Source: Pseudomonadota bacterium
Lineage (GTDB): Bacteria; Myxococcota_A; UBA796; GCA-2862545
Length of the DNA stretch: 64,000 nt
Direction of reading: 5' to 3'
NCBI GenBank assembly: GCA_947475315.1
Contig: CANJMY010000001.1
Span: 1-64,000, forward strand
Position numbers and translations under genes: made by a program. Position 1 is the first letter of the stretch. Every line of letters starts with the position of its first letter. A model generated the notes under the pieces. The model searched no databases. It saw only the letters and a program-made list of their open reading frames with translations, and was not told the origin of the DNA. Below, piece by piece: positions 36,382 to 45,104 of the stretch.

Positions 36382-37227
36382 TCAGGCCAGGACCACGGCG
36401 AGCAGGAAGGCCAGCGAAATGTAGCCGTTCAAATCAAAGAACGCTTTGTCGATCCGCGACAGGTCGTTCGGGCGCACGATCCAGTGCTCGTAGGCCAGCA
36501 CCGCGGTGATGGCCGCCACGCCCACCCCGTAGGGCCAGGTCAGCGCCACCACCGACGGCAGCGCCACCAAGCAGCCGACCGTCACCACGTGCAGCAGCGC
36601 CGACACGATGAGCGCGCCGCGGTTGCCGAGCACCGCCGGGATGCTGCGCAGGCCGACCGAGCGGTCGAACTCCGCGTCCTGGCAGGAGTAGAGGATGTCG
36701 AAGCCCGCCACCCAGGTGGCGACCGCGACGGACAACAGCAGGCTGGTGACGCTGGCCGTGCCGGTCAGCGCGATCCACACCGCCGTCGGCGCGATGCCGA
36801 GCGCGACGCCCAACACGACATGGCACAGCGCCGTGAAGCGCTTGGTCAGCGAGTAGCCCCACACCACGGCGATCGCGACCGGCGACAGCAGCAGCGTGGC
36901 GTGCCCCAGCAGCGCCGAGAACGCGACGAACAGCGCCGCGCTGCCGAGCGTGAAGGCCCAGGCCGCGCCCACGCCGATCTCGCCGGAGGGGATCTCGCGG
37001 TTGGCGGTGCGCGGGTTGGCCGCGTCGTAGCGGCGGTCGACCAGGCGGTTGAAGCCCATGGCGCTGGAGCGGGCCGTCACCATGCACAGCACGATCAGCC
37101 CGACCTGAGCGGGCGTCACCGTCACCTGGCGCGACGCCAGCACCGCCGCCGCAAGCGCGAACGGCAGCGCGAAGATGGAGTGCGACAGCTTGATCATCTT
37201 GCTGTAGACGACGAGGGCGCTGCTCAC
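36382..37227 (-). CDS. mqnP: UbiA-family prenyltransferase, probable menaquinone enzyme (MqnP-like)
   Basis: 281 aa integral membrane protein with about eight helices. The two Asp-rich motifs are NRLVDRRYDAANPR (residues about 59-72) and DILYSCQDAEFD. NREIPSG follows the first motif, as in UbiA/MqnP. GTG 37227 has GGAGG 6 nt upstream. In the futalosine route the prenyl step uses a UbiA-like enzyme, and other pathway genes lie 3-8 kb away on the same strand, so MqnP is likely. 4-hydroxybenzoate polyprenyltransferase is the alternative. Confidence 0.8.
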   Translation of the reverse strand: MSSALVVYSKMIKLSHSIFALPFALAAAVLASRQVTVTPAQVGLIVLCMVTARSSAMGFNRLVDRRYDAANPRTANREIPSGEIGVGAAWAFTLGSAALFVAFSALLGHATLLLSPVAIAVVWGYSLTKRFTALCHVVLGVALGIAPTAVWIALTGTASVTSLLLSVAVATWVAGFDILYSCQDAEFDRSVGLRSIPAVLGNRGALIVSALLHVVTVGCLVALPSVVALTWPYGVGVAAITAVLAYEHWIVRPNDLSRIDKAFFDLNGYISLAFLLAVVLA

Positions 37228-39222: not shown

Positions 39223-40377
39223 TCACGGCGCGACGATCCACCGTCGCGCCGGTGCCGCGCGCCCCAGGTCCTCCACGCGGCCCGCGTCGAGCTGCAGCAG
39301 ACCGGGGCGCGCGCCCACCACCACCTTACCCACGCCCGTCGCGCGCAGCGCGGCCGCGCCCTCGTGCGTGACCATCGCCAGCCAACGCGACACCGGCACG
39401 TCCGGGAACGCCGCGGCGAGCACGGGGATCTCGCCCAGCACGTCCAGGTCCGGCGAAGACGCCAGGCTGTCGGTGCCCAACGCGCAGCGCACGCCCGCGG
39501 TCAGGTACGACGGCACGTCCGGCAGCCGCCCGCCCACGTGCAGGTTGCTGCGCGGGCAGAAGCAGACCGGCGCGTCGGCGAAGGCGATCGACAGGACGGC
39601 GCGGTGGTCCAGGAGGACGCCGTGCACCAGCAGCAGGTCCGGACCCAGCACACCCAGGCGCGACAGCACGTCGATCGGCCCCACGCCGGGCACCGGCCAG
39701 CCGCGCCACTCGCGGCCCAGCCGATCGAGCAGCTCCGCGTGCGGGCCGTCGCCCGACATCAGGAAGCGCGCCTCGTCCTCCGCCTCGCCGACGTGGATCG
39801 TCGACGGCACGCCCTTGGGCCCCGCGCGCACGCACGCGACCACCAGCTCCGGCGCGGTGGAGAAGAGCGCGTGCGGCGCGGCGCGCACGACCACACCCGG
39901 CGCGCCCGCGGGCTCGTTCACCAGCGAGGCGATCGTCGCAGGCACGGTGCGCGCGTCAAAGCCCAGGCGCTCGTGCTGCACGACGCCGCGCAGGCGCGCG
40001 GACGCCAGGTCCGCCGCGGTGTCGCCCGCGTTCGACACGTCGACCACGTAGGCCGTGCCGTGATCGTGCAGCGACGCCGACGCCGCCGCGCGCGCCTCCG
40101 CCTGCCCCACCACCGCGCCCACCGCCCACAGCGCGTCCAGCCACGGCACAAAGCCGGGCGAGGTACCCTTTACCTTGCCCGCCAGGTGCGACAGCTCGGT
40201 GTGGGTGTGCGCGTTGATCAGGCCCGGGACCACCAGGCCGTCCACCCGATCGCCGTCGCCTGCGCGCCACGGGCGGACCTCAGCGATCACGCCGTCGTGC
40301 AGCAGGACCGTCGCGTCTGTCAGCAGGCCCGAGGGCGTCCAGAGCGCCCGCGCCGCGACGATCGTCGGCGCGTCCAC
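39223..40377 (-). CDS. mqnX: amidohydrolase, probable aminodeoxyfutalosine deaminase (MqnX-like)
   Basis: 384 aa. Metal-dependent amidohydrolase superfamily (ATZ/TRZ type): HxH in NAHTHTELSHL, HVGEAEDE, VHGVLLD, CPRSNLHVGG and the late Asp in GTDSLASSPDLD. The GTG start at 40377 lies 4 bp after the upstream mqnA-type gene. It is the last gene of the menaquinone operon, which supports MqnX (deamination of aminodeoxyfutalosine to futalosine) over the general cytosine/guanine deaminase call. Confidence 0.8.
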   Translation of the reverse strand: MDAPTIVAARALWTPSGLLTDATVLLHDGVIAEVRPWRAGDGDRVDGLVVPGLINAHTHTELSHLAGKVKGTSPGFVPWLDALWAVGAVVGQAEARAAASASLHDHGTAYVVDVSNAGDTAADLASARLRGVVQHERLGFDARTVPATIASLVNEPAGAPGVVVRAAPHALFSTAPELVVACVRAGPKGVPSTIHVGEAEDEARFLMSGDGPHAELLDRLGREWRGWPVPGVGPIDVLSRLGVLGPDLLLVHGVLLDHRAVLSIAFADAPVCFCPRSNLHVGGRLPDVPSYLTAGVRCALGTDSLASSPDLDVLGEIPVLAAAFPDVPVSRWLAMVTHEGAAALRATGVGKVVVGARPGLLQLDAGRVEDLGRAAPARRWIVAP

Positions 40378-40381
40378 GCGA

Positions 40382-42133
40382 TCAGTCCGCGCGCGCGCGC
40401 GACTCGACCGGGCGCACTCGCTTGAGCGAGGTCAGCGCGCCGCCCACCGAGTCGAACGACGCGCCGCGACGCACGACGCTGAAGCCCGCCACGCGCATGG
40501 CGCGCTCGGCCAGGTCGACGTCGACCGGGAAGTCGTGCACGTCGTCGTCGGCGGACCAGACGCCGGTCGCGAGCACGCCCAGGTCATCGGCCCCGCCGGC
40601 GAGTGCGGCCTGCGAGGCGTCGACGCCCTGCGTGCGCGGCGACCCGCTGATGTGCGGCACGGCGCCCAGCAGCAGCCGCGCGAGCGCGACCGTGCGGAAG
40701 AACCAGGACGGCGTGGGGCGGCCCGGCTCGATCAGCGAACCCGACGGCAGCGCCAGGTGCACCGACGCGGTGGTGATGGCGCCGGTGGTCTCAGCGGCGC
40801 CGCGCAGCACGAGCAGGCGCGACACGATCTGCGCCTCGTCGCCGTCGGCGTCGATCCACAGCTCGGCGTCGACCGGCAGGCCGGCGGCGCGCGCGGCGGC
40901 CAGCGCGGCGAGCGGCGGCGCCTGCGTCACGCGCCACGACAGGCCCGCGAGGCCCGCGTCGCGCAGCGCGGGGAAGGTGGCGACGTCGACCTGATCCACG
41001 TCCACACCCAGCGCGTCCAGGCCCGCCGCCTTCACGACCTCCAGCCGCGCGAGGCGCGTGTCCGCGTCGAGCAGGCCCAGGTCAGACAGCACGACGGTGC
41101 TGGCCTTGTCGCCGAGCGCGGACGTCACGGCGGCGCCAAACGGCGCGCCGCCCGCGGCGACCAGCGCGGCGGGGAACGCGCGCGCGAGCAGGTAGCTGAC
41201 CTCGCGCTCCGGGTGGAGCTCCAGGCGGCGCAGGTTGGCGGCGGCGAGCAGCTCAGCGCCCGGCGCGTCGCGCAGCAGCGTGAGCGCGTCGACCGCGTCC
41301 AGGCGCGCGCCGTCGAGCGCGGCGGCCAGCTTGGCGTCCACGTCGACCGCGCGCGGGCGGCTCGGCTCGGACGGCTCGTAGAAGCGCACGTCCGACGTGC
41401 CGATCAAGCCCGCGCGGAACGCGAGCGCGGCGTAGCGACGAAGGCCCATCAGCGCGGACTCGTCGAACGTGTAGCGCAGGTTGTGCAGCAGGTAGTCGCG
41501 ATCGGCGCCGGTGTAGCGCGTGGCGATGTCGGCCACGCCCGCGGCACCCGCGGCCCGCAGGTCGTCGCGCACGGACTGCGGCAGGTCGGCGCGGCCCGCC
41601 CACACGGCAAACACAAACGGGCGGCCGGTCCACTGCTTCCACAGCTCGGCCAGGTCCCACTTGCGCAGCGGCGCGGGCAGCGCGCGCGCGGGGTCGCCGA
41701 TCACCACCGAGGCGACGGTGCCGCCAACGCGCTTGGGACCGTCGCCGGGCTCGCCGTCGGTGATGACGAGGTCGGCGCGGACGCGCTTGCTCAGCGGGCC
41801 CTGCGTGAGGAGCAAGCGCGCGAGCGTGACCGACGTGCGGGAGGAGCCGTCGAGCACGACCTCGGTCCATGCCTCAGGATCGGTCTCGGCGGCGATCACG
41901 ACCGAGGCCACGGGGCCGTCGGCGCCGATGCACCAGCCCGGGAGGATGCGCCAGTCGCCGTCCGTGAGGGCGGCGGCCGCAGGCACGAGCGCGATGTCGA
42001 CCGCACCCGTGCGCAGCGCCGTGGCGATGCCGCGCGGGTGGGCGGCGACGACCTCGTACTTGTCGCGGTCGAGCAGGTTGGTGAGGGGTGCCGCGTTCAG
42101 GTAGCCGACGGTGCCGATGCGAAAGCGGGTCAT
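40382..42133 (-). CDS. mqnA: MqnA chorismate dehydratase fused to a Cys-less MqnC-like radical-SAM fold
   Basis: 583 aa. Residues 1-260 match MqnA: RIGTVGYLNAAPLTNLL, VDIALVPAAA, SSRTSVTLARLLL, RPFVFAVWAG and YTGADRDYLL. Residues about 264-583 align with futalosine-pathway radical-SAM enzymes: LDAVDALTLLRDAPGAELL and VSYLLAR (MqnC start), KAAGLDALG, and near the end LLLGAVPHISGSPRTQG followed by GGADDLGVL and AGFSVVRRGASF. Where CxxxCxxC should occur there is LVAAGGAPFGA, and the domain has no Cys. It cannot bind a normal [4Fe-4S]-SAM cluster, so a structural or regulatory role is likely. The gene is 1 bp after mqnE and 4 bp before mqnX. Confidence 0.8.
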   Translation of the reverse strand: MTRFRIGTVGYLNAAPLTNLLDRDKYEVVAAHPRGIATALRTGAVDIALVPAAAALTDGDWRILPGWCIGADGPVASVVIAAETDPEAWTEVVLDGSSRTSVTLARLLLTQGPLSKRVRADLVITDGEPGDGPKRVGGTVASVVIGDPARALPAPLRKWDLAELWKQWTGRPFVFAVWAGRADLPQSVRDDLRAAGAAGVADIATRYTGADRDYLLHNLRYTFDESALMGLRRYAALAFRAGLIGTSDVRFYEPSEPSRPRAVDVDAKLAAALDGARLDAVDALTLLRDAPGAELLAAANLRRLELHPEREVSYLLARAFPAALVAAGGAPFGAAVTSALGDKASTVVLSDLGLLDADTRLARLEVVKAAGLDALGVDVDQVDVATFPALRDAGLAGLSWRVTQAPPLAALAAARAAGLPVDAELWIDADGDEAQIVSRLLVLRGAAETTGAITTASVHLALPSGSLIEPGRPTPSWFFRTVALARLLLGAVPHISGSPRTQGVDASQAALAGGADDLGVLATGVWSADDDVHDFPVDVDLAERAMRVAGFSVVRRGASFDSVGGALTSLKRVRPVESRARAD

Positions 42134-42134
42134 C

Positions 42135-43271
42135 TCAGGCCTCCGCGACCACGTGGTACAGCGTGTCCCGCTCCACCGGCACCCGCCCCGCGCCGTGGAT
42201 GAGGGCGATCAGGTCGGCGCGCGACAAGGCCTGCGGCGTCTTGGCGCCGGCCATGTGGTAGATGCGCTCCTCGCGCACGGTGCCGTCGACGTCGTCGGCA
42301 CCCCACGAGAGCGCCGCCTGCGCCACCTGCACGCCGAGCATGGGCCAGTAGGCCTTGAGGTGGCTGATGTTGTCGAGCATGAGCCGCGCGACCGCGTAGG
42401 TGCGCAGGACCTCGACCGCGGTGGCCTCGTACAGGCCCGCGAGCCGGTTGTGCTCGTTGTGGAACTTGAGCGGGATGAAGGTCTGGAAGCCGCCCGTCTC
42501 GTCCTGCAGCGCGCGCAGGCGGAGCATGTGGTCCAGGCGATCGTCGGTGGTCTCGATCATGCCGAACAGCATGGTGCAGTTGCTGCGCAGGCCCAGGCGG
42601 TGCGCCACGCGGTGCACCTCCAGCCAGCCGTCGGCGTCGACCTTGTCGTCGCAGATCTTGTGGCGCACGCGCGGCTCGAAGATCTCGGCGCCGCCGCCCG
42701 GCAGGCTGTCGAGGCCCGCCGCCATGAACTCGCGCAGGATCTGCTCGTAGGTCATGTTGTACTTGTTGGCGTAGTAGTGGACCTCGACCGCGGTGAAGCC
42801 CTTGAGGTGCACGTCCGGACGCTCGGCCTTGAGCGCCCGCAGCAGGTCCGTGTAGTAGGCGAACGGCAGGTCCGGGTTCAGCCCGTTGACGATGTGGACC
42901 TCGGTCACCAGCGTGTCCGACAGCGCGCGCAGGCGCGACACGGCCTGATCGAGCGTCATGGTGTAGGACTCGGGGTCGCCGGTCTTGAGGCGCGAGAAGC
43001 TGCAGAACATACACGTCGCTTCGCACACGTTGGTGGCGTTGATGTGCTGGTTCCGGTTGAAGTAGGTCAGGTCGCCGTGCTTGCGCTCGCGCACCAGGTT
43101 GGCGAGCGCGCCCACCACCGCGACGTCGGGCGTGGCGAACAGGCGCTGGCCGTCTTCGAACGTGAGGCGCTCGCCGGCCTCCACCTTGTCGGCGATGTCG
43201 GAGAGGCCTGCGGCGGCGGCCGCGCGGCGCGTCACGAGCGGCAGCGACGCGGGCTTGCGGAGGGTGTTCAC
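42135..43271 (-). CDS. mqnE: aminodeoxyfutalosine synthase (radical SAM)
   Basis: 378 aa from GTG 43271, with GGGAGG upstream and a GTGA overlap with the UbiX-like gene. The radical-SAM cluster motif is NVCEATCMFC (Cys83, Cys87, Cys90), preceded by NQHINATN. It also has GLDSLPGGGAEIF, TMLFGMIETTDDRLDHMLRLR read in part, LKFHNEHNRLAG, and the MqnE-type end KAYWPMLGVQVAQ, GADDVDGTV and RVPVERDTLY. It joins 3-(1-carboxyvinyloxy)benzoate and SAM into aminodeoxyfutalosine. This is the intact enzyme to compare with the degenerate domain encoded next to it. Confidence 0.93.
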   Translation of the reverse strand: MNTLRKPASLPLVTRRAAAAAGLSDIADKVEAGERLTFEDGQRLFATPDVAVVGALANLVRERKHGDLTYFNRNQHINATNVCEATCMFCSFSRLKTGDPESYTMTLDQAVSRLRALSDTLVTEVHIVNGLNPDLPFAYYTDLLRALKAERPDVHLKGFTAVEVHYYANKYNMTYEQILREFMAAGLDSLPGGGAEIFEPRVRHKICDDKVDADGWLEVHRVAHRLGLRSNCTMLFGMIETTDDRLDHMLRLRALQDETGGFQTFIPLKFHNEHNRLAGLYEATAVEVLRTYAVARLMLDNISHLKAYWPMLGVQVAQAALSWGADDVDGTVREERIYHMAGAKTPQALSRADLIALIHGAGRVPVERDTLYHVVAEA

Positions 43272-43858
43272 GAGCGACCTCCCAGGAGCTGGCCCGACCA
43301 GCGCGCCATCAGCGCGTTGTCGAAGCCGAGGTGATCGAGGATGCGGGCCACCACGGTGTCGACCAGGGCGTCGACCGTCTGCGGGTGGCTGTAGAAGCTG
43401 GGGCTGGCGGGCATGATGGTGGCGCCCGCCTCGGTCACCGCCACCATGTTGCGGCAGTGGACCAGGCTGAAGGGCGTCTCGCGCAGGACGAGCACGAGCG
43501 GGCGGCGCTCCTTGAGCATCACGTCCGCCGCGCGGCCGAGCAGGTCGGCGGACACGCCGTGCGCGATGCGGCCCATGGCGTTGGCCGAGCACGGCGCGAC
43601 GACCATGGCGTCAAACAGCGCGGAGCCCGACGCGAACGGCGCGGTGAGGTCACCGGGGCTGTAGATCGGGAAGCCGTAGGCCGCCGGGTCCGTACCGACC
43701 TCGTCGTTCCACACCAGGCGACCGGTCTTGCTGAACACCACCGCGACCTCAGCCGCGTGCGTGGCGGCGAAGAAGTCGAGGAGGCGCCGCGCGTAGATCG
43801 ACCCGCTGGCGCCGCTGACCCCAAGGACCAGGCGCGCCACAGGGCGGGCGGGACTCAT
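43268..43858 (-). CDS. ubiX: UbiX-family flavin prenyltransferase (MqnM-like)
   Basis: 196 aa. UbiX/Pad1 motifs: LGVSGASGSIYARRLL, APCSANAMGRIAHGVSADLL, RRPLVLVLRETPFSLVHCRNM, and GATIMPASPSFYSHP. It makes prenyl-FMN for a UbiD-type decarboxylase. In futalosine gene sets the paralogue is called MqnM. It overlaps the polyprenyl synthase upstream (ATGA) and mqnE downstream (GTGA). No UbiD/MqnL gene is in the window. Confidence 0.92.
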   Translation of the reverse strand: MSPARPVARLVLGVSGASGSIYARRLLDFFAATHAAEVAVVFSKTGRLVWNDEVGTDPAAYGFPIYSPGDLTAPFASGSALFDAMVVAPCSANAMGRIAHGVSADLLGRAADVMLKERRPLVLVLRETPFSLVHCRNMVAVTEAGATIMPASPSFYSHPQTVDALVDTVVARILDHLGFDNALMARWSGQLLGGRS

Positions 43859-44886
43859 ACGGTGCGCTCGACGAGCCAGGCCGCGAGCACTTCCAGCGCG
43901 TCGCGGGCGGGCGTGGGCGGCAGCTCCTGGAGCGCGGCCACGGCGTTGTCGGCCCAGCCGTGCGCGTCGGCCAGCGCCAGATCCAGCGCGCCGGAGTCAC
44001 GCACCGCGTTGAACAGCCCGGGCAGCTCGTCCTCGGTCGGGGCGGCGCGGCGCAGGCGGTCCTTCAGGCCCGGCACACGACCGAGCGCGTGCAGGATGGG
44101 GAGCGTGATCTTGCGCTCGCGGAGGTCCGCACCGGCGCGCTTGCCGGTGCCTTCTGCGAAGTCGAGCACGTCGTCGGCGATCTGGAACGCGATGCCGACG
44201 CTGTGGCCGAACCGCGCGAGCGCGTCCGCGGAGCGCGTGTCGCCGATGGCGAGCGCGCCGACTGACGAGCACCACGCGACCAGCGACGCGGACTTGCGGG
44301 TGATGACCTCAAGGTAGGCTTCGACCGTGACGTCGAGGTTGCCGGCGCGCTGCAGCTGCAGCACCTCGCCTTCGCTCATCTCGCTGACGGTGCGGGCCAG
44401 ACCCGCGCCCGCCGCGGCGCCGCCGTGCTCGATGGCCGCGAGCAGCGCGCGCGCCACGCAGTGGTCCCCGGTGAGCACCGCGACGGCGTTGCCGTGCAGC
44501 ATCTGCGCGCTGGGGCGACCGCGGCGCGTCTCGCCGTCGTCCACCACGTCGTCGTGCAGGAGCGAGCCCAGGTGGATCAGCTCACCGCAGCACATGAGGA
44601 TGGGCGAGGGCGACTCGACGCCCACCGCGCGCGCGCCGAGCGCGGTCAGCGCGGGCCGCAGGCGCTTGCCGCCGCTGTCCGCCAGGTAGTGCGCGATCTG
44701 CGGGAGCGCGCGCACGTCGCTCTCCACGATGCGGCGCAGCTCGACCTCGGTCTGCGCGAGGTCGTCCGCCACCAGCGCCAGGGCCTGGGACGGGTCCACC
44801 GAGGGCGCGCGGAGCACGCCGCGGATCAAGCCTTGCGGGCTCGTCCTTCGTGCGCTTCCTCCGGCCAACATGGACACATTCGACAT
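43855..44886 (-). CDS. trans-polyprenyl diphosphate synthase
   Basis: 343 aa from ATG 44886, with GGAGAG 8 nt upstream. First Asp-rich motif LLHDDVVDDGETRRGRPS, second IADDVLDF, and GGKRLRPAL near the start. Long-chain synthases of this type make the menaquinone side chain; chain length cannot be read from sequence. It heads the menaquinone operon. An open frame extends to 45075, but the added residues lack homology. Confidence 0.92.
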   Translation of the reverse strand: MSNVSMLAGGSARRTSPQGLIRGVLRAPSVDPSQALALVADDLAQTEVELRRIVESDVRALPQIAHYLADSGGKRLRPALTALGARAVGVESPSPILMCCGELIHLGSLLHDDVVDDGETRRGRPSAQMLHGNAVAVLTGDHCVARALLAAIEHGGAAAGAGLARTVSEMSEGEVLQLQRAGNLDVTVEAYLEVITRKSASLVAWCSSVGALAIGDTRSADALARFGHSVGIAFQIADDVLDFAEGTGKRAGADLRERKITLPILHALGRVPGLKDRLRRAAPTEDELPGLFNAVRDSGALDLALADAHGWADNAVAALQELPPTPARDALEVLAAWLVERTV

Positions 44887-45104
44887 GGTGGGCTCTCCGG
44901 CCACGTGGGCGGCGTCTATCCCGTCTCGGGTCGGATGCCCTGTCCCGGTCTTCGAGCGGATACGAACCGACGTCGATGAATGCACGGGGGCTCCATTCAG
45001 GAAAAGGGGCCCCTCTACCCCCATTCCCGCGGTGTCCGACAAGTCGCCGCCGTTTGCTGCACAGGTGTGTTGCACAGCGTATGGGCCGATCCCCGGGAGT
45101 TCTC

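Follow-up and report, generated by a model that had tools for sequence, protein, structure and literature searches.

The window (the whole stretch of 64,000 nucleotides analysed here) carries on its minus strand a gene in which an MqnA domain is followed by a region resembling MqnC, placed among other genes of menaquinone synthesis by the futalosine pathway (Table 1). The mqnE stop codon stands 1 bp before the start of this gene (TGA-g-ATG), as the earlier note on this DNA, silent on the strand, had described. The UbiA-family prenyltransferase reached 242-254 bits with the MqnP models, which is below their cut-offs. MqnD is present in the genome, and MqnB (TIGR03664) was not found in the 85%-complete assembly.

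Table 1. Features of the fusion gene and its surroundings, in window coordinates
Feature	Position	Strand	Evidence and remarks
UbiA-family prenyltransferase, MqnP-like	36382..37227	minus	TIGR01475, 284 bits, above cut-off
Aminofutalosine-deaminase-like amidohydrolase, follows the fusion gene in the cluster	39223..40377	minus	PF01979; NF006269, 72 bits, below cut-off of 320
mqnA-psi-mqnC fusion gene	40382..42133	minus	583 aa plus stop, ATG start; PF02621 and TIGR03699 matches
Degenerate MqnC (predicted radical-SAM barrel) domain, residues 264-583	40385..41344	minus	TIGR03699, AlphaFold, Foldseek
CofH/MqnC C-terminal region, residues 477-556	40466..40705	minus	PF19288 (CofH_C), E 6e-5, below curated cut-off; best-kept part of the domain
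LVAAGGAPFGA, residues 324-334	41132..41164	minus	aligned with CxxxCxxC in intact relatives
N-terminal helical segment of the MqnC domain, residues 264-306	41216..41344	minus	alignment and model; most of the decayed relatives still have it
MqnA (chorismate dehydratase) domain, residues 1-260	41354..42133	minus	PF02621, E 1e-32; YLN asparagine motif conserved
mqnE (aminofutalosine synthase)	42135..43271	minus	CEATCMFC intact; TIGR03700, 501.6 bits, above cut-off
UbiX-family flavin prenyltransferase	43268..43858	minus	TIGR00421, 181 bits, above cut-off
Polyprenyl diphosphate synthase	43855..45075	minus	TIGR02748 match; the ORF start probably lies upstream of the true one

Two trivial readings of this gene were discarded. 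The plus strand opposite the gene is also open in one frame (675 aa), yet all homology lies on the minus strand, which leaves no place for a spurious antisense ORF. A sequencing frameshift or assembly artefact, named by the earlier note as a possible refuter, is excluded: another genome of the genus, assembled independently, encodes the same protein with 99% identity, and comparison of the two second domains shows 2 nonsynonymous and 17 synonymous changes.

The assignment of residues 1-260 to MqnA was borne out by a profile match over residues 5-204 (PF02621, E 1e-32) with 113.8 bits against a gathering score of 26. Sequence and fold searches alike returned solved MqnA structures for this half (2nxo, 7ahr and 6o9a), the fold match with the SCO4506 enzyme (2nxo, 7ahr) having an E value of 2e-17. 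The asparagine of the YLN/FLN motif, which we take to be catalytic in MqnA, corresponds to N13, a residue aligned with the solved enzymes and invariant in 38 relatives. As judged from these comparisons, the first domain is a complete MqnA predicted to dehydrate chorismate, and differs from known MqnA proteins in carrying an additional barrel domain.

Residues 264-583 had been described as a radical-SAM MqnC-like region that has lost its iron-sulfur cluster, a description with which the profile and structure searches proposed at the time agree. The MqnC model TIGR03699 matches residues 409-561 (E 2e-11, 43.2 bits), far below the equivalog cut-off of 428, and the domain sides with MqnC over MqnE by profile score (43 versus 21 bits). 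No Cys occurs past residue 250, and in the alignment with intact relatives the CxxxCxxC columns hold A, A and G, within the very segment LVAAGGAPFGA that had been singled out as its replacement. The GGE SAM-binding motif is deleted as well, and the tryptophan that sets MqnC apart from MqnE has become a histidine. The AlphaFold model built with 38 relatives has a mean pLDDT of 90.7 for the protein and displays residues 264-565 as a complete eight-stranded barrel with helices, at a pLDDT of ~93 over most of its length. With this second half, Foldseek retrieved from the PDB the radical-SAM enzymes MqnE (6xig, E 1e-13), HydE (7o1o, 4.5e-9) and BioB (8vdw, 8e-9), and also PylB; model and matches together rule out an unrelated fold. 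On the strength of profile, alignment and model, the second domain is a descendant of MqnC with a predicted radical-SAM barrel fold. It shares with MqnC a homologous fold, the C-terminal region and the place after MqnA in the gene order, but differs in the loss of all three motifs, in a score far below the cut-off that intact fusions exceed, and in its fusion to MqnA. MqnE (6xi9, 6xig) is its best solved fold match, its neighbour in the cluster and, in family f4, part of the same frame; unlike the window domain, MqnE retains the cluster.

Similar fusions, which the earlier note had suggested looking for, exist in related genomes in both intact and decayed form. Within the window's order, 10 of the 43 genomes with the gene have a fused second half that keeps CxxxCxxC (CVTACKFC or similar) and scores above the TIGR03699 cut-off, and further families of the phylum, f15, f32, f51 and f53 among them, have intact fusions too. 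These fused relatives with their intact MqnC half indicate that the window domain was once a working MqnC. The UbiX-MqnE-MqnA-MqnC-deaminase order of the window recurs with an intact MqnC in one locus of Myxococcales (L126) and one of Myxococcia (L153), and since these share the gene order, the degenerate domain occupies the place of MqnC. A Myxococcota-type fusion also turned up in a contig titled as a Klebsiella pneumoniae metagenome-assembled genome (L116, CAMBIK010000088.1), a label that is probably wrong. In G009, the C-terminal part of MqnC occurs a second time, incompletely (L047:7570-8472; G009:C19:83971-84414), ~2.5 kb after the intact fusion; this copy lacks a Cys motif and shares 84% identity with the MqnC of G045.

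Decay of the second half has proceeded to very different extents, total protein length ranging from 373 to 625 aa among the decayed relatives. The domain is small in G057 and G027 and almost gone in G048, a genome of family f4. The short protein of G008, with a remnant of 171 residues, is also predicted well (pLDDT 93.6 overall), but no radical-SAM structure stood among the matches listed by its structure search. Alignment columns that 12-13 of 13 decayed relatives have kept belong mainly to the terminal segments and are mostly fold Gly, Ala, Leu and Arg, the N- and C-terminal segments being alike retained across separate decayed lineages. In a tree of MqnA plus MqnE the state changes between intact and decayed 6 times, at least 5 of them forced by the starred branches; if decay is irreversible, these changes are separate decays.

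Family f4 offers a further arrangement. In eight of its loci (L037, L038, L039, L040, L042, L043, L044 and L045), MqnE, MqnA and a live or dead MqnC form one frame of ~900-1300 codons, and the frame of G032 (L038) keeps an intact Cys motif in each of its two radical-SAM parts.

An intact MqnC encoded apart from the fusion had been another suggested object of search, and the result is split. A separate radical-SAM protein of 373 aa with CVAKCDYC was indeed found in the window genome (G000:C47:13528-14646; PF04055, 54 bits, above cut-off), and it was, other than MqnE, the sole further MqnC-like candidate there. MqnC is its best family, but with 281.7 bits it stays below the TIGR03699 cut-off of 428.1, so that it stands as a candidate enzyme nearest to MqnC rather than a recognised one. 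We use the name MqnC-II for the separate, divergent MqnC-like clade to which it belongs. The protein retains GGGAE and the MqnC-specific W, and at 25 positions diagnostic for MqnC and MqnE it goes 6 times with MqnC, 3 with MqnE and 16 with neither. Thirty-six MqnC-II sequences form one clade with a support of 100, apart from both MqnC and MqnE. Copies from other Myxococcota genera are 57-66% identical to that of the window genome, and identity to fused MqnC is 33-36%. Two copies each occur in G027 (C73, C118) and G046 (C111, C141), one of the former being closest to one of the latter.

Beyond the phylum, 20 of the 396 sampled Acidobacteriota genomes have MqnC-II as a separate gene (54-60% identity; L287-L304), and none of 392 Planctomycetota genomes has it. 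When the tree is rooted on MqnC, by a long outgroup branch, the Myxococcota sequences fall into a single clade (99), unlike those of Acidobacteriota, a topology that fits one transfer into Myxococcota. Separate horizontal transfers between families of the order are suggested by the tree but not required, as the AU test does not reject a single clade for either f2 (p 0.21) or f4 (p 0.065). No conserved neighbourhood with mqn genes was found across the MqnC-II loci compared, so that membership of an mqn operon was discarded for them. In G035, MqnC-II lies on the same contig as a polyprenyl synthase-UbiX-MqnE cluster, several kb away and outside it.

The distribution of MqnC-II in the window's order is complementary to that of the fused enzyme. 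Among 63 genomes, MqnC-II occurs in 36 and an intact fused MqnC match in 12, with neither in 15 and both in none, so that MqnC-II is present where the other MqnC is absent. In the first 43 order genomes read, the 10 with an intact fusion are without MqnC-II and the other 33 all have it, 32 of these with a readable fused region devoid of the Cys motif. Carriers G295, G296 and G297 were left out of this reading, and the gene of G050 runs off its contig; this last genome also encodes a 566-aa MqnC/MqnE-like frame (L220:2639-4336) with CVKSCRFC, 37% identity to MqnC and a very long branch. The fused domain is decayed or decaying in every MqnC-II carrier where it can be read. Two genomes, G276 within the order and G274 outside it, combine MqnC-II with a fused domain in which the Cys motif survives, and the branches of these domains measure 2.52 and 1.39, respectively, against roughly 0.05-0.5 in intact relatives.

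That decayed domains occur only alongside MqnC-II might suggest that MqnC-II needs the dead domain as a non-catalytic partner, in the manner of pseudoenzyme-enzyme heterodimers. We find this quite improbable, since plain displacement predicts the same pattern, MqnC-II persists in G048 with the domain almost gone, and in 15 Acidobacteriota loci, where MqnC-II is separate, no mqn gene was detected within about 8 kb. It is likewise unlikely that the dead MqnA-fused domain was kept as a docking or regulatory partner for MqnC-II, with MqnC-II as an unrecognised radical-SAM family doing the MqnC step, and that bifunctional enzymes thereby turned into enzyme-pseudoenzyme pairs repeatedly within one order.

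Selection on the remnant differs among lineages. In the one close pair of genomes available for the window's genus, the 19 changes of the second domain noted above give an omega of 0.046, next to 3 nonsynonymous and 21 synonymous changes and an omega of 0.050 for MqnA, and neutral evolution would give so few nonsynonymous changes with a probability of about 1e-7 to 1e-6. In the other decayed lineages the whole-domain omega is 0.11-0.54, above the MqnA value for all pairs computed, and the dN of the second domain is about 1.2 to 3 times higher than in MqnA; in the four intact pairs compared, this dN does not exceed the MqnA value. The remnant is thus under purifying selection in the window's genus, eroding elsewhere and almost gone in G048. 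The view of the domain as a pseudoenzyme, which has lost its motifs and is nevertheless constrained, stands on these data.

A pure relic, functionless and eroding after takeover by MqnC-II, would account for the faster evolution in other lineages, for the wide range of lengths and for the near absence of the domain from G048. Such a relic would not be expected to evolve as slowly as MqnA in the window's genus, nor to keep an omega of 0.11-0.54 even where it is faster, a fold that is predicted intact both here and in the mini-domain of G008, and corresponding terminal segments in separate lineages; this explanation is possible but doubtful. Constraint on a fully folded barrel could also reflect a new non-radical catalytic or ligand-sensing function, which seems highly improbable given that no conserved new motif was recognised and that the kept columns are mostly those fold residues.

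The earlier note had gone further in proposing that the pseudoenzyme binds MqnE and channels the product of MqnA to it. The 1-bp spacing of mqnE and the single frame of family f4 speak in its favour, the latter as support for MqnE-MqnA proximity only. The domain has its origin in MqnC, which works several steps later than MqnE, rather than in a protein that binds MqnE, and G048 retains the MqnE-MqnA fusion with the MqnC part almost gone. These points make the proposal improbable.

The explanation we favour, with a probability of about 0.72, is that MqnC-II took over catalysis and that MqnA has kept the old fused half as a structural domain without catalytic function. The ancestor would have had a bifunctional MqnA-MqnC fusion encoded after mqnE. 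MqnC-II, probably gained before the fused half decayed, would then have taken over the cyclisation of dehypoxanthine futalosine, a step that is presumably needed because MqnD is present, and the freed half would have lost CxxxCxxC, the GGE SAM motif and the MqnC-type tryptophan. Co-distribution and homology point to MqnC activity in MqnC-II, whereas its score below the TIGR03699 cut-off, only 6 of 25 diagnostic positions and the want of an mqn neighbourhood count against the takeover. In the window's genus the barrel would have been retained after becoming part of the folding or assembly of MqnA, and its role would most likely be in stability, oligomerisation or packing against pathway partners. 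Such a structural role would be dispensable in places, since the domain is almost missing from G048 and small in G057 and G027.

No report of the MqnA-MqnC fusion or of its decay was found in the open-access futalosine-pathway literature, subscription papers being outside the scope of the search, and nothing on an MqnA-fused dead MqnC was found in open-access work on radical-SAM pseudoenzymes. In a menaquinone (vitamin K2) pathway protein of an uncultured myxobacterial relative, we thus encounter a natural, replicated series of one half of a fused enzyme dying, from intact domains through eroding ones that keep their cysteines, full barrels without cysteines and a mini-domain to nearly nothing. 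The favoured explanation also predicts a second form of MqnC in Myxococcota and Acidobacteriota, which annotation with TIGR03699 would leave below the cut-off.
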